From assembly GCA_022360105.1 (NCBI GenBank), contig JAKSDL010000314.1, positions 1 through 9,732 of the forward strand: a stretch of 9,732 bases of DNA, given 5' to 3'. Of the stretch, positions 2,885 through 9,501 are shown in pieces. The position numbers and the translations under genes were made by a program. Below the pieces are notes generated by a model. It ran no database searches and was not told where the DNA came from. It saw only the letters and a list, made by a program, of their open reading frames with translations. Position 1 is the stretch's first letter. Each line of letters starts with the position of its first letter. The stretch comes from Pseudomonadota bacterium (GTDB lineage Bacteria; SAR324; XYD2-FULL-50-16; JAHJRI01).

Positions 2885-3145
2885 CTACAGACTGCCCGCA
2901 TCGCCGCTCATGGTTTCCTCAATCAGTCTGTCGAGTTCTTCGGTGGTCAGTTCTTCTTCCGGCTCCTTAGATGCGGGAACCTGGCCAGTCGGAAAGGAGG
3001 TGACCACCACGGAACCGGATTCTGTCAGGGTTCTGTCTTCAACACGAGTGATGGCATCCGCCACAATCAGGGAGAAGCAGAACAGGGAAAAAAGCAGAAG
3101 AAGCAGGCTGTTCCTGTCTTTCAGGAGGTTTTTCTTTGACGCCAT
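2885..3145 (-). CDS. Small single-helix membrane protein of the rdh operon, unknown function
   Basis: An 86-residue protein I do not recognise. A basic N-terminus (MASKKNLLKDR) precedes one hydrophobic helix at about residues 13-31. The tail of about 55 residues is strongly acidic near its end (EPEEELTTEELDRLIEE). The predicted topology is N-terminus inside, with the acidic tail in the periplasm, like an uncleaved signal anchor. The ATG overlaps the end of rdhC by 25 bp in a different frame, and AAGGA lies only about three bases upstream, so its translation probably depends on ribosomes finishing rdhC. The overlap and shared strand make it the fifth gene of the dehalogenase operon. A role as a small partner of the RdhC/RdhB membrane complex is a guess from context. 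No clear terminator follows. Confidence 0.75.
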   Translation of the reverse strand: MASKKNLLKDRNSLLLLLFSLFCFSLIVADAITRVEDRTLTESGSVVVTSFPTGQVPASKEPEEELTTEELDRLIEETMSGDAGSL

Positions 3146-4317
3146 AATTCCTTAATCCAGTTTTTCATCATTCGTAAATAAGCATCCACCGGGTGTATGG
3201 GGCAGATATAGTTGCACCAGGGGCGCAAGACATATGTTGACATGAGGAACACCAGGGCGATGATCAGAAACTGAAAGCTCGATCCCCACATCTGAAAGAA
3301 GGTGCCGAAAACCTCATAACTCGTGAGGCCAGGATCACGCAGCAGCAGCGCCACCAGAATAGCCGTCAGAGCCAGACCGCGGTGCAGCCACTTTAAAAAT
3401 TCCCGTAAATGACGCGGATGCCTCGGTTTGGCTTTCATCAGTTTACCCAGACATTCCTGAGCCGCACCAAAAGGGCAAATCCAGGTACAATAGGGACTTC
3501 TTCCCTCCAGCAGAAAATGCAGGAGAATTCCTGCCACCAGCAGGTAGGTAAAAAGGTTGGAATGCCAATCCGGCCAGAAACCTAAAAGCAACTGATTGAT
3601 TATCGAAATGGTCAGTGGATTGTTGTATATGAAACCAAAACAGATCAGTCCGGTTAAAAGGCTTACCCAGCGCAGAGTTTTAGTATGCGGGAAGAGTTTG
3701 CGGCGGGCCAGGATTCCCAGGGCAAAAAGCAGAATCAAAATTATCTCCGCAGGTCCGAAACGAACTTTCCGGGAGGTCGTATCAGGCAAGTCCAGATCAA
3801 GCTGTTGCCTGGCAATCTCTTTAACGGCCTGCCGCACTGAGGTAACTACAGCAAGACCGGAAAGCGTGGCACCGGAGACTCCGTCCACATCCTGATTGAG
3901 TAAAAACGAATCCCTGTAACTTTTGCCCATCAACTGACCAAGCAGTCCGCTTTCAACGATCTGGTTGAAATAACTGGGCGTGTCTTTATGATCCACCACA
4001 CCTAGCCCAATGACTGTACCCTTGCTATCCACGGCGACAGCCATGGTCACGGGACCTCCATACCCTTTGGCACGGATGATACAAAGGTATGCCAGAAGAG
4101 ATGTACCGTTTTGATCGCTCCAGGCGGCGTAGGTCCCTCCCTTTAAATGTTGAAAATGGTGTGCTGTGGGCAATAGTTGTCTGAAATAGGGCAGGTGGTC
4201 AGCTTGAGTGTTCAGTCCGCCGACGAACCAGGCAACGACGATCAGGAACAAAGCCACCAGGCCCAGGTATCTATCCAGGTATTTTGAACCGGTTGAACGG
4301 CGACGATGATTTGACAT
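3121..4317 (-). CDS. rdhC: RdhC-type membrane flavoprotein (NosR/VprC-like) of the reductive dehalogenase operon
   Basis: A 398-residue integral membrane protein. After a first helix (about 18-34) comes a periplasmic FMN-binding domain (about 60-175). This carries DGVSGAT at 145-151, in which the last Thr is the usual covalent FMN attachment site. About five further helices follow (roughly 190-204, 217-232, 253-270, 312-328 and 347-366). Two polyferredoxin-like motifs, CTWICP (277-282) and CNYICP (368-373), face the cytoplasm; each is a CxxxCP, as in RdhC and NosR. The family is proposed to pass electrons from the quinone pool through bound flavin toward the exported reductase. Earlier work also suggested a regulatory or maturation role. 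The gene starts 5 bp after the TPR gene and overlaps the next small gene. NosR itself is unlikely because no nitrous oxide reductase gene is near. Confidence 0.88.
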   Translation of the reverse strand: MSNHRRRSTGSKYLDRYLGLVALFLIVVAWFVGGLNTQADHLPYFRQLLPTAHHFQHLKGGTYAAWSDQNGTSLLAYLCIIRAKGYGGPVTMAVAVDSKGTVIGLGVVDHKDTPSYFNQIVESGLLGQLMGKSYRDSFLLNQDVDGVSGATLSGLAVVTSVRQAVKEIARQQLDLDLPDTTSRKVRFGPAEIILILLFALGILARRKLFPHTKTLRWVSLLTGLICFGFIYNNPLTISIINQLLLGFWPDWHSNLFTYLLVAGILLHFLLEGRSPYCTWICPFGAAQECLGKLMKAKPRHPRHLREFLKWLHRGLALTAILVALLLRDPGLTSYEVFGTFFQMWGSSFQFLIIALVFLMSTYVLRPWCNYICPIHPVDAYLRMMKNWIKELWRQRKTS

Positions 4318-4322
4318 GACAA

Positions 4323-5663
4323 CTACCCCGCGGCTTCCAATTCCTGGTTCAGCAACCGAGCTTTATCCTCGAACACCGTCAATCCCACCTCTTGAAAAGA
4401 GGCGATTGCCTGTCGACATAAGTCCCTGGCTTTTTCCAGATGGTTAAGGTCTCTATAGGCCATGGACAGGGAGATCTGCTGTTCGCCGACAATCCTGCGA
4501 TCTTCAATTTTGCTGGCAATTTCCAGGGATTCCTCCGACAGGGCGATCGACTTTGCGATATCGCCGGATTCGGCTGCAATCATGCTCAAGTATCCCAGCA
4601 ACCGCGCCTGATGATGATGTTCCTCCAGTGCCACTGCCAGTTCTAAAGCGCGGTTCCAAACCTGACTGGCTTCCTCAATACTGTTGCGATCAACATAAAC
4701 GCTGCCTTGGTTAATCAGCAGTTCCATCTCTCTAAGCTGATCGGAAGCGGCTTGAGCTGTGGCAATGGATTGCTGCATTTGTTCGTGGGCTTCCTCAGTT
4801 TTGTTTAAGTTAAACAATTGGGCAACGAGCACGTTGTCATAGGAACTGTCCGCGGGTGAATTATCGCGGGCAATTTTTTGGGCGATTCGAGTGTATGCCA
4901 GGGCCTTTTCCGGATGGTCCAGTGCAGTGGCTGCTTTAATCAGTTGATTCAAGGCATTCATCTCTCCGGCTGTATCTCCGGTTCGATGCGTCAATTCCCG
5001 CACCTGTTCAAAGATATCGAGAATTTTTTTCTGGTCGTCCAGGCGAACGGCTAACACACCAATATTGGTCAAATAGCCGGCTTCAGAACGCGGATCATTC
5101 AGATCATGGGCCAACTCCCTGGCCTGTTCGAAACAGATCAGGGCATTTTCAATATCGGCGGCTAACAGATGCGCATGCCCCATGTTGCCGACGTGGACCA
5201 TTTCACGTCGCTGATCTTCCAGATCAACGGCAATGTCCAAAGCCTCCTGCAAGCTACTGAAAGCCAGGCCCATATCACCGGTTTCAACAAATACCATCCC
5301 CAAATTACCCAGGGCGTCGGATCTCAATCCTCGGTCATTCAGCTCAGCAGCAATGTCGATTACCTGCTGAAAACATTGGGCAGCGGTTTCAAAGGCTTTG
5401 GCATCAGCCAGAGCCAATCCTTTGGTTCCAATTTGACGGGCTTCCAGCCCTCTGTCCTCACTTTTTTGAGCCAGAGCAATGGCCAGATCGAGCTGTTCCG
5501 CTCCTTTTTCAAACTCATTCACTTGAAAAAGCGCCAGACCCAATTCGGAGAGCGCCTCGCTGACCCCGACCGGATTTCCACGTTGGCGAGCCTTGCTCAA
5601 CGCTTCCCGATAGGGAGTAAGATAGGTTGCACTATCCGACAGACAATGATTGTCATTCCTCAT
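4323..5663 (-). CDS. TPR-repeat protein encoded inside the rdh operon
   Basis: A 446-residue soluble protein made almost entirely of degenerate tetratricopeptide repeats of about 40 residues, similar in style to GPSM/kinesin-light-chain repeats. Recurrent elements are LGxLGMVFVETGDMGLAF-like helix pairs, and ALDIA or ALELA followed by an LxD/E turn (for example AIALAQKSEDRGLEA and ALDIAVDLEDQRRE). There is no signal peptide or membrane helix, so it should be cytoplasmic. The ATG at 5663 is preferred: AAGGA lies about ten bases upstream, while the GTG at 5702 would place the start inside a stable hairpin. It lies between rdhB and rdhC. TPR solenoids hold partner proteins, so a chaperone role for RdhA before Tat export, or for cofactor loading, is a reasonable guess from position. 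The sequence itself shows no catalytic motif. Confidence 0.85.
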   Translation of the reverse strand: MRNDNHCLSDSATYLTPYREALSKARQRGNPVGVSEALSELGLALFQVNEFEKGAEQLDLAIALAQKSEDRGLEARQIGTKGLALADAKAFETAAQCFQQVIDIAAELNDRGLRSDALGNLGMVFVETGDMGLAFSSLQEALDIAVDLEDQRREMVHVGNMGHAHLLAADIENALICFEQARELAHDLNDPRSEAGYLTNIGVLAVRLDDQKKILDIFEQVRELTHRTGDTAGEMNALNQLIKAATALDHPEKALAYTRIAQKIARDNSPADSSYDNVLVAQLFNLNKTEEAHEQMQQSIATAQAASDQLREMELLINQGSVYVDRNSIEEASQVWNRALELAVALEEHHHQARLLGYLSMIAAESGDIAKSIALSEESLEIASKIEDRRIVGEQQISLSMAYRDLNHLEKARDLCRQAIASFQEVGLTVFEDKARLLNQELEAAG

Positions 5664-5685
5664 TCGCAACAATTCCTTACAAGAG

Positions 5686-5716
5686 GGAAGGTGCCTGCGC
5701 ACCTTCCGATTTTTTT
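5686..5716. terminator. Strong hairpin between rdhB and the TPR gene, with T-run on the plus strand
   Basis: GGAAGGTGC (5686-5694) pairs perfectly with GCACCTTCC (5699-5707) around a four-base loop. On the plus strand the stem is followed by GA and seven T (5710-5716), the form of an intrinsic terminator for transcription running rightward, against the operon. In the rdh mRNA (minus strand) the same stem is preceded by seven A and not followed by T. There it would act as an intercistronic stem, perhaps protecting the rdhAB segment from 3' decay. It sits in the 78-bp gap after the rdhB stop. Confidence 0.6.
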
Positions 5717-5741
5717 GTTGGTTAACGGAAAATGGTTTGGA

Positions 5742-6029
5742 TCATGTTTCAGATCCCAGCGTGATGATGCGCCAGACACCTACTCCCAAAATAGCAGCAG
5801 GCACCACCGAGAACAATATCATCCAGGCTCCGGCGGCAGGCTCCCCTTCACCGATAAAGGTGAAGGGGACGGCAACGGCAAGCAAAAATCCAATCCACCA
5901 GCCACCGGACAGCACCCATTTCCACCAGGTCATGCGGATTCCCTTTTCCTTAGCCAGTTGCTTGAAACCAATTGCCATCACCAGTGACACCAGGCCCATT
6001 GCAAACCAAAATATACTCCATCCATACAT
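5742..6029 (-). CDS. rdhB: Reductive dehalogenase membrane anchor RdhB
   Basis: A 95-residue protein with three predicted membrane helices at about residues 3-22, 36-58 and 67-89, including the tryptophan-rich segment WWKWVLSGGWW (35-45). The loop between helices two and three contains EGE (61-63). This matches the conserved glutamate pair (EXE) described for PceB-type anchors, thought to contact the catalytic subunit outside the membrane. Size, helix number and position directly after rdhA are those of RdhB. The start codon shares a base with the rdhA stop (TAATG), and GGAG lies about eight bases upstream, so translation is coupled and the two products are probably made in equal amounts. The protein would hold RdhA on the periplasmic face near RdhC. 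Confidence 0.9.
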   Translation of the reverse strand: MYGWSIFWFAMGLVSLVMAIGFKQLAKEKGIRMTWWKWVLSGGWWIGFLLAVAVPFTFIGEGEPAAGAWMILFSVVPAAILGVGVWRIITLGSET

Positions 6030-7555
6030 TATGCGTCTCCTTTTTTAGGTTTTCTGATCGGTACGTCAAACCATTCTTCCGTTTTCAACCAGGCCGGAGC
6101 CTCGCGATAACTGGCAAACCGGCCATCTGGAGGCGGCAAATATTCCTGAGCACCCGGTGCTTTAAACATCAGTTTCTGCATCCAGGTCAGTGCGCTGGCA
6201 GCCAAGCCCGTGGGATCGTTGCGATCGACAATCTGGGAAAGCTTGTGAGCGTAGTTGCCTTTCCGACTATAGGGGCAACAAGCCAGACACAACCGGCAAC
6301 CTAACGGCCCCATGGCTTTGAACCAGTAATTGATACAGGAGCTGGTGTCTATAAACCAATGTTCATATCCCCTGAGCACCATTCCCTTTTCGGAATCAGC
6401 CATGCTAATCGAGCCCGATGGACACAGCTCTGCGCAAATCTTACAGGTCCTGCAGAAATGCTTGACACCGAACTCAATGGGTTTGTCAACCGTCATGGGC
6501 AGATTGGTGGTGACGCAAGCCGTTCTGATGTTGGCACCGGTCTCGGGTGTGATCACAAAACCGTGACGCCCTAACTCACCAACGCCTGCGTCCACGGTTA
6601 CCGGGGGTAGAATCAAATCATACATTGCCGGGGGATGGTGGCTACGTGCCGGGTACCCCAGCCCCTTGATAAAAGCGGTCAACCTTCCCGAACAATTGCG
6701 TGCTCTGTTGTAACCATCGTAACTGGTACCATGGGCAGGGTTGGAAAGCACCTGGTCCCATTCATGGGGAACCCCCACCACAATGGCATATTCCCAATGT
6801 TTAGGAACCTGAAACGGTCCCGGTTTTCCGCCCCGCACATCACGATCCCAAACCCAGTCGGGATTGAGCTTTGCGATACCCACAACGGTAGCCCCGTACA
6901 GGTGCGCAATTTTTTTTATCAGTTTGGAGGCATGATCCTTACTTTTAAAGGGCATGGGTTCCCCAATTTTCTTGACCACATTGGGCCTTCCCGTACCGCC
7001 GTATTTGACCATTTCATAGTCGGATTCCTCCGGTGGTTTGTCGGGTTCAGGGGGATAGGAGGTGAAGATGTCTCCCCAACCTGCGGAATAAGCGTTGGCC
7101 AGGGCAAAATAGTTTTTGTATTTTTTCGTATCCCGGGCGCGTTTGGGAAAGATCTTGAAATAGCGTTCAATATCGTTTTTCAGGTCGTCAGGGTGACGTT
7201 TGTAAAAGCTGGCCAAAGGCTCTCCCAGTTTTTCCACTCCCTGATCCGGTTTCCAACCGTCTTTTAGCGCCTTGCCAAACAGCATGTTGCGCTTAAAGAT
7301 ATACTCGGTGTCCTTGTTGGGACGCCTGGTTGCACCTACTTTTCTGTGAGGCGGTTTGTCTATTTCCCAGGCCTTGCGGTCTGTCTGTTTAGCACCCGAG
7401 AAATCTCTCCATGCCGTGTAGCTCTCCGTGGTTTTGCCGGCAACATAACCGGCACCCGCGATACCAGCGACTTGCAAACCGGCTCCCGCAACGGCACCAA
7501 TCTTAAAGAAATCCCGGCGGGAAACCTTGCCTCCCGGTTTTTCGGACGTCGTCAT
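6029..7555 (-). CDS. rdhA: Reductive dehalogenase catalytic subunit RdhA (corrinoid/Fe-S, Tat-exported)
   Basis: A 508-residue respiratory reductive dehalogenase, which removes halogen from an organic substrate with cob(I)alamin as reductant. The Tat signal has SRRDFFK at 12-18, then a hydrophobic stretch rich in Ala and Gly to about 40. The first Fe-S motif is C368-x2-C371-x2-C374-x3-C378-P. The second is C407-x12-C420-x2-C423-x3-C427-P, with an additional Cys at 426. Both have the layout typical of RdhA. The core VDAGVGELGRHGFVITPETG (321-340) is shared by RdhA and its relative QueG. By alignment from memory with PceA, Tyr282 and Arg344 correspond to catalytic Tyr246 and Arg305, while the Asn272 position is not Asn. 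ATG 7555 is chosen for its GGGAG site and the immediate Tat motif; an in-frame upstream ATG would add 27 residues unlike a signal peptide. The halogenated substrate cannot be read from the sequence. Confidence 0.93.
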   Translation of the reverse strand: MTTSEKPGGKVSRRDFFKIGAVAGAGLQVAGIAGAGYVAGKTTESYTAWRDFSGAKQTDRKAWEIDKPPHRKVGATRRPNKDTEYIFKRNMLFGKALKDGWKPDQGVEKLGEPLASFYKRHPDDLKNDIERYFKIFPKRARDTKKYKNYFALANAYSAGWGDIFTSYPPEPDKPPEESDYEMVKYGGTGRPNVVKKIGEPMPFKSKDHASKLIKKIAHLYGATVVGIAKLNPDWVWDRDVRGGKPGPFQVPKHWEYAIVVGVPHEWDQVLSNPAHGTSYDGYNRARNCSGRLTAFIKGLGYPARSHHPPAMYDLILPPVTVDAGVGELGRHGFVITPETGANIRTACVTTNLPMTVDKPIEFGVKHFCRTCKICAELCPSGSISMADSEKGMVLRGYEHWFIDTSSCINYWFKAMGPLGCRLCLACCPYSRKGNYAHKLSQIVDRNDPTGLAASALTWMQKLMFKAPGAQEYLPPPDGRFASYREAPAWLKTEEWFDVPIRKPKKGDA

Positions 7556-7627
7556 AAAAATTCTCCCATAAAATGAGGTTCCATGGCACTGCAGCTTTTT
7601 ATAACCTACCATTGCCATCATTGTGCC

Positions 7628-7673
7628 TGCCAGCACACACAGGCCTGCATTATTTGGGACTGTGCGTCTGGCA
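7628..7673 (-). other. 5'-terminal stem-loop of the rdh transcript
   Basis: On the minus strand TGCCAG-A-CGCACA (7673 down to 7661) pairs with TGTGTG-CTGGCA (7639 down to 7628). This gives 12 pairs including one G-U, with a single bulged A, and the 21-base loop itself contains the palindrome CAGGCCTG. Position 7673 is exactly the +1 predicted from the sigma-54 promoter at 7684-7700, so the mRNA would begin with this stem. It lies about 70 bases before the rdhA ribosome binding site. A role in mRNA stability is the simplest reading. A protein-binding DNA site is the alternative. Confidence 0.55.
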
Positions 7674-7683
7674 GTCTACCTTC

Positions 7684-7700
7684 AGCAAAAATGTTGCCAA
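7684..7700 (-). promoter_or_regulatory. Sigma-54 (-24/-12) promoter of the rdh operon
   Basis: Minus-strand TTGGCAACATTTTTGCT matches the RpoN consensus YTGGCACGRNNNTTGCW at 11 of the 14 defined positions, or 13 if the two substitutions in the CG pair are ignored. The invariant GG (7698-7697) and GC (7686-7685) are separated by exactly 10 bases. The predicted +1 is near 7673, giving a leader of about 118 bases before rdhA. The divergent neighbour encodes a GAFTGA-type sigma-54 activator, which independently supports this promoter class. Confidence 0.8.
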
Positions 7701-7766
7701 AATCGTCAAACATCGATAATCACAATCAGAAGGCACATGGACAGCTGAAGGAAGCATGATGTTTAG

Positions 7767-7793
7767 TTGACTATTGTACAATAATTGTAAAAT
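7767..7793 (+). promoter_or_regulatory. Possible sigma-70 promoter of the sigma-54 activator gene
   Basis: TTGACT (7767-7772) could serve as -35 and TAAAAT (7788-7793) as -10, but the 15-base spacer is short. The region down to 7815 is very AT-rich, so other choices exist (for example TATATC at 7810-7815). The proposed elements flank the palindrome at 7772-7789. This is a weak assignment, listed because the gene needs a promoter in this gap. Confidence 0.3.
7772..7789. promoter_or_regulatory. Palindromic candidate activator site (UAS) in the rdhA-regulator gap
   Basis: TATTGTACAATA (7772-7783) is a perfect 12-bp palindrome. It overlaps a second, odd palindrome TACAAT-A-ATTGTA (7777-7789), so ATTGTA occurs twice in direct orientation 11 bp apart, about one helical turn. 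The first centre is about 104 bp upstream of the predicted rdhA start, a usual distance for enhancer sites of sigma-54 activators. It also lies within a possible promoter for the regulator gene, so binding could repress the regulator itself. Binding by the neighbouring protein is an inference. Confidence 0.5.
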
Positions 7794-7848
7794 AGGCTAT
7801 TTTTATTACTATATCACAATAAAACCATTCGCAACGAGCAAAAAGTTT

Positions 7849-9501
7849 ATGCCGGATTCAACCATCCCAAATCATCAGTTTTTTCGTGACGCAGTATTGG
7901 CGGTTTCTTCCAGCCTTGATTTGTCCCACGCCTTGAGAGCCCTGTTCGATTTTGCCAGCCGGCACTTTCCCCTGGAAGGATTGACTCTCCACAAATACGA
8001 GCACCAAATGAAATCCCTGCGCCTGCTCTTTTTGGTCACCGGAGACAACTATATTTTTCTTGATGAACTGATTCCGTTGAGTTCCGAGGGCGAGAAGGAT
8101 GTCATAGCAACCGAAGAGGCAAAGGGCGTCATCAATGCCTCCACGGTGATAGGTCGTCCTATTGCGGGGGAGCACAACAAAGCACTGGCAAAATACCTGC
8201 CGTTCAAGGATCGGGCGTATCTTGTCATTATTCTATCAGCCAAACAAAAAGTTATCGGCCATCTCTGTCTAATGGGCCGGAAAACCCATTGTTTTAACAA
8301 AGAACACGAGAAAAAACTGGAACTGCTTGGTCCCCCGGTAAGTCTGGCTATGATGAACCTGCTTCAGTATCATCGCACGCTTGAACTGCAAAAAACATTG
8401 GACGCCCAACGCCAGCAATTGTTGGGAGAAGTTTCGCTGCTAAAAGATTCCTCGGCTATTGTCGGACAACAAGGATTGAGCAAAACCATAAAGATGATCC
8501 GTCAACTGTCCGGGCAGGATATTCCGGTTTTGATCCACGGTGAAACCGGTACGGGAAAAGAGCTGATAGCAGACGCTATTCAGCGGGTATCGCGTCGTGC
8601 GTCAGGGCCTTACATCAAAGTCAATTGCGGAGCGATACCGGAAACCTTGGTGGACAGCGAATTTTTCGGATATCGGAAAGGTGCTTTTACCGGGGCTAAC
8701 GAGGATCGAGCCGGGAGGTTCGAACAGGCCAACGGAGGAACCCTTTTCCTGGATGAAATCGGCGATTTACCGCTCCAGCTTCAAGTCAGGCTTTTAAGAG
8801 TGCTGCAAAACGGAGTCGTTGAAAGGTTAGGCAGTAGCAACCCGATTCCGGTTGATGTCAGAATCATCGCTGCCACGCACAAACCCCTTAAAACCATGCT
8901 GCAAAAGGGAACATTCAGAGAGGATCTTTACTACCGCCTCAGCGCATTCCCCATGACAATCCCTCCGCTGCGGGAAAGAACCGAAGATTTGCCGGTCTTG
9001 ATCGACCACTTTCTGAAAAAACTAGCCAAAGAACTAAGCCTCTCCCAGACACCCCGACTTTCCCGGAATACGATGGAAAAGTTGAAAGCTTACACCTGGC
9101 CGGGGAATGTCAGAGAATTGCAAAACCTGCTTGAGCGGGCGGTAATTCTTTCTCCGGAAGGGTCGTTAAATTTAGAGAAATACCTGCCACAAGACCCAAG
9201 TTGGTACCTCAATACGGATAACGGGTCAGGTTACCTTGAACGTCTTGTTGAAAAACAGGTGAAGGAAGTGTTGCAGAAGCATTTGCAAACTCAAACCGTC
9301 AAGACGGAAGAGTTTGTTGATGACACTACGCCATTGCAGCCCTTAGACGAGGCCATGGCGGCACACATCAAAAAAGCACTGTCCCTGAGCCGGGGTAAAA
9401 TACACGGTCCCGGCGGTGCAGCTGAACTGTTGAAGATCCATCCCAGCACCTTGCGTAAACGCATGGATAAGTTAAGCATTGCCTATGGTTACAAGCGTTG
9501 A
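7849..9501 (+). CDS. Sigma-54-dependent activator with GAF sensor, AAA+ and Fis-type HTH domains
   Basis: A 550-residue enhancer-binding protein. Residues about 8-175 form a GAF-like sensor, followed by a helical linker (about 175-200) and the AAA+ core (about 202-425). The core has Walker A GETGTGKE (231-238), the sigma-54-contacting loop GAFTGA (278-283), Walker B GTLFLDE (297-303), REDLYYRL (357-364, Arg-finger region) and WPGNVREL (417-424). The C-terminus carries a Fis-type helix-turn-helix (about 500-545; [18 protein letters not shown]). There is no receiver domain, PAS domain or membrane segment, so the GAF domain probably senses a cytoplasmic ligand directly, as in FhlA or NorR. It is divergent from rdhA, which has a -24/-12 promoter, so rdhA activation is the obvious role; the inducer is perhaps the organohalide (inference). 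ATG 7849 is chosen as the first Met matching the start of the GAF domain, although its ribosome binding site is weak. A TTG at 7774 would add 25 unlikely residues. Confidence 0.92.

Follow-up and report, generated by a model that had tools for sequence, protein, structure and literature searches.

How would a bacterium switch on an organohalide-respiration operon through a regulator encoded beside it? The question is raised by a 9,732-nucleotide stretch of contig JAKSDL010000314.1 (hereafter the window), which belongs to an assembly of a Pseudomonadota bacterium placed by GTDB in SAR324 (GCA_022360105.1). On its reverse strand, the window carries the reductive dehalogenase (rdh) genes rdhA-rdhB-TPR-rdhC and a small last gene (7552-2885), which face away from a gene for a sigma-54 activator, or enhancer-binding protein (EBP), on the forward strand (7849-9501). 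The start codons of rdhA and the EBP gene are separated by 296 bp, and within the operon neighbouring genes either overlap or are spaced by 5 to 39 bp, a maximum that rises to 78 bp if translation of the TPR gene begins at its ATG. Gene calls, order and spacing agree with an earlier note on this DNA, which had described one tight operon. The genes, a promoter element, the architecture of the activator and a regular pairing of its subfamily with rdh operons are seen in the sequence. We consider it very likely, on sequence grounds, that the operon serves organohalide respiration and is switched by its own cis-encoded one-component sigma-54 activator.

Pfam, alignment and the predicted fold together give the EBP a GAF-fold N-terminus, an AAA+ domain (Sigma54_activat, PF00158, 4.5e-69) with GAFTGA at residues 278-283, and a putative C-terminal helix-turn-helix (HTH). 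The Pfam search found neither a GAF domain at the N-terminus nor a receiver domain; the predicted structure of the N-terminus matches GAF domains, with a pLDDT (predicted local distance difference test) of 79-93 in blocks of ten over residues 11-170. The Fis-type HTH_8 reached 17.5 bits against a Pfam cut-off of 22, and PF02954 is precomputed for two of nine other EBP relatives (P0122 and P0124). The earlier note had called this protein a GAF/GAFTGA/Fis activator facing away from rdhA; divergence, GAFTGA and, by predicted structure, the GAF fold are confirmed, and the Fis-type HTH stays below threshold. Among NCBIfam models, NorR, NtrC, PrdR and NifA score best. NorR has a GAF-AAA+-HTH layout and senses nitric oxide through iron in its GAF domain. 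The EBP shares this layout with NorR, its best model, but scores far below the NorR cut-off (332 vs 476 bits) and has other neighbours.

The EBP and its relatives are regularly paired with rdh operons. Searches with the sensor domain (residues 1-195), in genome sets that overlap one another, gave matches at 1e-15 in 12 of 389 genomes from the class of G007 and in 2 of 395 from a phylum draw. At 1e-25, a second phylum search matched 1/395 and an order draw 5/340, all five seen in other draws; at 1e-3, four of the seven genomes reached through loci were matched. In phmmer, nine genomes with at least 123 bits were split from 14 other EBPs with at most 62 bits. The pairing counts come from the gene neighbourhoods of these nine strong genomes. 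Eight have the EBP and an rdhA operon in divergent orientation, immediately adjacent in locus L102 and with a TPR gene between them in the others; in the ninth, where the contig ends, the gene opposite the EBP is an rdh-type TPR gene. When G002, G003 and G007, which were reached through RdhA loci, are removed, the EBP faces rdhA in all six strong genomes drawn by taxonomy. By contrast, no rdhA was found around any of the 14 weak relatives in flanks reaching at most ~8 kb, and less at contig ends; several of these control contigs are short, and one open reading frame (ORF) at the contig end of L120, with a 14-bit match to Desulfuromusa kysingii RdhA, was counted as no rdhA. A neighbourhood search of the kind that the earlier note had called for sets the strong sensor-domain EBPs (8/9) apart from the weak ones (0/14).

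The EBP tree draws the same line. A branch of support 100 separates the 14 weak EBPs from 17 others, which are the window EBP, P0122, P0124-P0130 and the EBPs of eight strong genomes; the EBP of L107, a near copy of L106, was left out here and in the residue comparison. Another relative, P0123, is recorded as Desulfobacula sp., and the sigma-54 DNA-binding domain is present in 9/9 genomes of the strong relatives. These sequence comparisons give good support to the view that the window EBP belongs to an rdh-dedicated activator subfamily. Separately, a Phycisphaerales locus (L061 7628-9001) has a different sigma-54 activator divergent from rdhA, with 230 bits to the whole EBP and no sensor-domain match.

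Within the subfamily, L59, F61, L62, H109, H138 and G143 are shared by all 17 EBPs and C140 by 16, and these residues occur in 0 to 2 of the 14 weaker EBPs. The contrast at H109 is weak because the alignment shows a gap there in 10 of these 14 controls. In the predicted structure, the marker residues fall within two strands (56-64 and 134-143) and one helix (104-115), and the corresponding strands and helix of GAF domains border the ligand pocket. We regard H109, H138 and C140 as a lead for ligand tests and no more.

The 296-bp gap contains a putative target of the activator. A -24/-12 promoter element, TGGCAACATTTTTGCT (7684..7699, reverse strand), is the window's only TGGCA-N6-TTGCW (one site vs 0.06 expected; 12/200 shuffles hold one), in line with the near-consensus promoter that had been proposed before rdhA. 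Since matches to a fuller consensus with two mismatches are at chance level in the window (7 found, 5.5 expected), the weight is carried by the position of the element and its conservation in relatives. Elements resembling -24/-12 sites occur in the window gap and in those of nine relatives, two of the ten identified by eye. The regular expression TGGCA-N6-TTG[CTA][AT], relaxed after viewing, is present in 8/10 gaps vs 4/1800 random pieces; it finds nothing in L109 and L068, where visual inspection gave the variants TGGCATGGATATCGCT and TGGCACAAATACTGTA. A divergent sigma-54 activator paired with the rdh operon, as the earlier note had it, remains the best reading in view of these conserved elements and the contrast between strong and weak relatives.

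Nearer to the EBP start codon lie two candidate activator sites on the reverse strand, TTGTACAATAGTCA (7768..7781) and TTGTGATATAGTAA (7806..7819), which follow the pattern TTGTNNNATAGTNA. This pattern, defined post hoc from the window and L102 sequences themselves, occurs twice in the window (0.01 expected) and once in L102, inside the gap in both. The upstream gaps of the window and L102 align locally with a score of 53, against a best of 39 in 500 shuffles, and the densest part of the aligned stretch, judged by eye, is 7763..7823. The palindrome TATTGTACAATA (7772-7783) was rejected as an operator, as it is not kept as a palindrome in L102, and is therefore listed only within the candidate site. 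The earlier note had placed all activator sites in one 290-bp gap; the gap is there, at 296 bp, and the word "all" exceeds what can be read from it. In the mechanism that we propose, the one-component activator would bind the candidate enhancer-like sites near its own start codon, a signal to the GAF domain would cause the AAA+ domain to remodel the sigma-54 form of RNA polymerase on the -24/-12 element, and the remodelled polymerase would turn on rdhA-rdhB-TPR-rdhC and the small gene. RdhA may then be exported by the twin-arginine translocation (Tat) system, anchored by RdhB and supplied with electrons via RdhC. Each of these parts, from the use of sigma-54, the binding sites and direct activation to export and the path of electrons, is proposed on the basis of sequence.

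The predicted products fit such an enzyme system. RdhA (6029..7552, reverse strand), the putative Tat-exported corrinoid/Fe-S catalytic subunit, carries the Tat motif RRDFFK and both Fe-S motifs and matches NpRdhA (2.1e-36), 8q4h (1.8e-29) and PceA (4.3e-27), with QueG much weaker (2e-06). Its predicted structure is poor in the C-terminal part; the 36 matches under 0.001 are to PceA, 8q4h and NpRdhA, with low TM-scores. Y281, R343 and W410 align with Y426, K488 and R552 of NpRdhA, which we take to be active-site residues. RdhB (5742..6029, reverse strand), the presumed membrane anchor, has three transmembrane-like stretches and an EGE motif, and homologues follow rdhA in most related loci; an EXE motif is given as an RdhB feature in PMC6797604. 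The TPR protein gene (4323..5702, reverse strand; TPR_12 1.2e-26), with a GTG start and an alternative ATG at 5663, has the same place in Chloroflexota loci, and a scaffold or maturation role is proposed for its product. RdhC (3121..4317, reverse strand), a predicted flavin mononucleotide (FMN)-binding membrane protein, is recognized by FMN_bind (4e-15), Fer4_5 (3.5e-13), its place in the tree, the DGVSGAT motif and two CX3CP motifs, in agreement with the FMN threonine and two CX3CP motifs described in PMC7031245.

The class of bacterial EBP (bEBP)-rdh pairing has already been published, and the window is a further example. In PMC6299228 (2018; Liu and Haggblom according to PMC6797604), 31 RDase (reductive dehalogenase) clusters of Deltaproteobacteria are reported to contain 22 bEBP genes, and sigma-54 sites at RDase clusters and TPR genes in clade 5 are described. 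Sigma-54 regulators are also described in the Desulfoluna rdhA1 and rdhA3 clusters (PMC7031245), and HyfR-like regulators adjoin both RDases of bin.3 in a Desulforhopalus-dominated consortium (PMC12908670). The suspicion in the earlier note that the class is not wholly new is thus borne out more strongly than it was put. CRP/FNR, two-component and other regulators occur near Aarhus Bay RDases (PMC12090745). The window shares with the bEBP-associated clusters of PMC6299228 the sigma-54 activator beside rdhA, the -24/-12 element, the TPR gene and rdhB. That paper leaves open sigma-54-driven rdh transcription and organohalides as bEBP effectors, and neither GAF nor "upstream activat" appears in its main text (0 occurrences each). 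The subfamily, operator and shuffling results presented here are additions that we did not meet in the sections of the literature compared. With CprK (CRP/FNR) and MarR-type rdh control, the window EBP shares a cytoplasmic, one-component nature, but it belongs to an unrelated regulator family and faces a sigma-54-type promoter.

Among published systems, these bEBP-associated clusters stand closest to the window, clade 5 above all (PMC6299228; D. kysingii, Halodesulfovibrio marinisediminis, Desulfovibrio bizertensis and Desulfoluna spongiiphila). EBP sensor domains of clade-5-like loci are homologous to that of the window (33-40% identity). The operons differ. The window RdhA is 35% identical to that of D. 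kysingii (L074, which we infer to be a clade 5 member) and stands apart in the tree, whereas clade members share >68% (PMC6299228); the TPR gene follows rdhB in the window but precedes rdhA in clade 5; and the clade-5 operator is absent from the window gap. This operator, the palindrome TTGTCTTATAAGACAA, emerged from seven clade-5-like gaps with a log-likelihood of 43.2, against a best of 22.5 in 25 shuffled sets, a comparison that favours the real set because the shuffled runs had 30 seeds vs 150 and mononucleotide shuffles. A leave-one-out test, which is independent of seed numbers although its shuffles are also mononucleotide, recovered the palindrome in six of the seven gaps, with at most 15/500 shuffles as good, and did not recover it in the D. 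kysingii gap L109 (60/500). L107 was again excluded from motif training. The 16-bp palindrome is found in up to three copies per EBP-TPR gap in L103, L104, L105, L106, L108 and L068, and is at most weak in L102 (47/500). From these sequences, TTGTCTTATAAGACAA is likely the activator site of clade-5-like rdh operons. The recognition helix of the EBP differs in parallel with the operator type of the gap: STLRKRM in the window and L102, STLRNKM in L103, L104, L106, L107, L108 and L068, STLRHKM in L105 and NTLRKRM in L109.

Regulator and enzyme do not keep the same company. The EBP of L102 (G357) is 71% identical to that of the window, with a conserved gap and a -24/-12 element, while the RdhA of L102 occupies a long, distant branch of the RdhA tree. 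This RdhA has no Tat motif and begins with hydrophobic membrane-like stretches, in which it resembles the hybrid RDases of PMC6797604. L102 2238-5583 thus holds an RdhA without a Tat motif behind the closest EBP to the window's among the loci examined. In D. kysingii, the EBP does not group with the other clade-5-like EBPs, whereas the RdhA is inside their RdhA group. Judged from these trees, related EBPs face unrelated RdhA types. The disagreement fits a history in which either control blocks or enzyme genes were exchanged, within the limits of quick trees, long branches and few loci.

The gene order of the window recurs in Chloroflexota. Five loci have rdhA-rdhB-TPR-rdhC (L002, L018, L045, L065 with an extra ORF after rdhB, and L077) and L011 has rdhA-rdhB-TPR; the window RdhC is nearest in the tree to Chloroflexota RdhCs (support 91, not starred). 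In place of the EBP, however, these loci have TetR genes near rdh (L018, L045, L065, L011) or MalT/LuxR-type genes (L002, L065, L077), the nearby regulator gene adjoining a second rdhA in L018 and L011, and ApbE follows rdhC (by Pfam, in L018 only). Two of the six Chloroflexota genomes, a set that counts the genome of L011 and may be incomplete in its assemblies, contained the sigma-54 domain. Tentatively, and with more doubt than confidence, we suggest that the rdh-dedicated GAF-bEBP, its enhancer and the -24/-12 promoter may form a portable control block on at least three RdhA types, namely Chloroflexota-like (window), clade 5 and membrane-hybrid (L102). In this joint proposal, the operator would change with the recognition helix, the block would stand where Chloroflexota with the same rdhA-rdhB-TPR-rdhC order have TetR or MalT-type control, and the GAF pocket (H109, H138, C140) would be a new organohalide/halophenol sensor class.

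Some side observations concern the same enzymes. The second RdhA of Desulfosediminicola flagellatus (L064 4329-7489) is near a Chloroflexi RdhA (L077 4436-5998; branches 0.14 and 0.32, support 100), and the L064 RdhC falls among Chloroflexota RdhCs; a recent transfer is possible. In L045 9998-11520 and L071 9947-11463, RdhA is split into two ORFs each, through real breaks or assembly errors.

Several findings weigh against control of the operon by its own sigma-54 activator. The EBP subfamily is present in the flanks examined of just two of 80 RdhA-found loci (L068, L074), which are the best 80 of 107 and have many flanks that are short and from other phyla; the RdhA enzyme family therefore does not need the EBP. 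RDase A5 of D. kysingii has a nearby sigma-54 regulator, yet is not induced (PMC6299228). The clade-5 operator TTGTCTTATAAGACAA was rejected for the window gap (284/500 shuffles as good), and the window's own candidate activator sites were found post hoc. The gap also holds two weak sigma-70-like matches (9/12, on the rdhA strand in 7700-7649, vs 0.7 expected), which would suit an operon transcribed mainly from a sigma-70 promoter, with the divergent activator acting elsewhere or on its own gene only. We judge this improbable, since both matches overlap the -24/-12 element, and the relaxed -24/-12 expression is far more frequent in the related gaps than in random pieces. It also seems unlikely to us that the enzyme is another corrinoid/Fe-S reductase with rdh-like genes rather than a dehalogenase. 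Such an identity would suit the TIGR02486 score of RdhA, just below the cut-off (159.6 vs 160.35 bits), the lack of a dehalogenase match in Pfam, W410 at the place of R552 in NpRdhA, and close RdhA relatives that, among the matches listed, are metagenome-assembled genomes or records without an organism name. However, the QueG model scores only 41 bits, RdhA has the Tat signal and both Fe-S motifs with RdhB and RdhC as partners, and two of the active-site positions of NpRdhA are occupied by Y and R, the R in place of a K in NpRdhA. In addition, TIGR02486 places the relatives L002 and L102 above the cut-off and P0003 and L074 below it, the last being the RdhA of D. kysingii (153.8), a species shown to debrominate.

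The activator's signal is a separate matter, and we give roughly even chances to an organohalide or its phenolic product. Nearly as serious a candidate is an activator that works through sigma-54 with a GAF domain that senses redox state, a corrinoid, a metal, a formate-like metabolite or a phenol product. H109, H138 and C140 might be ligands of a metal or cofactor, NorR with its iron-based sensing is among the top NCBIfam models named above, and the presence of one EBP subfamily before very different RdhAs could mean a signal common to many substrates. On the other hand, 2,6-dibromophenol (2,6-DBP) induces rdhA genes with nearby bEBPs in D. kysingii and other species, up to 400-fold in D. kysingii and H. 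marinisediminis, and one D. bizertensis rdhA gene is induced over 600-fold (PMC6299228). The simplest explanation of 2,6-DBP induction near bEBPs is that an organohalide or a halophenol acts as effector. In L074 (contig NZ_FNQN01000010), the D. kysingii rdhA beside a relative of the EBP probably encodes the published RDase A10, whose gene responds to 2,6-DBP with an induction of up to 400-fold; the assignment of A10 to this contig goes by the number.

Around these genes, the last of the operon (2885..3145, reverse strand) encodes 86 residues with one transmembrane-like hydrophobic stretch; Pfam and NCBIfam gave no match, and phmmer matched nothing in the RdhA-found loci or the loci of EBP-found relatives. 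Downstream on the operon strand, 205-2655 holds a catabolic-looking cluster of a GntR/UTRA regulator, a LeuD/DmdB-family small subunit and a TctC solute-binding protein. Among the 120 LeuD matches listed of 7390, the first with an organism in its name is from a Desulfobacterales metagenome-assembled genome (59%), and the host is taken to be probably one of the Desulfobacterota. Among plasmid records, RdhA matched 12, none with 80% coverage, and the EBP matched 2466, all <60% identity, of which the ten listed looked like generic EBPs.

The window and its relatives provide a set of aligned sensors and promoters together with one well-supported operator motif, with which reporter strains could put the questions left open by PMC6299228 to the test. 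A sensor that binds halophenols would represent a new organohalide-sensor family beside the CprK and MarR types and a possible biosensor part.

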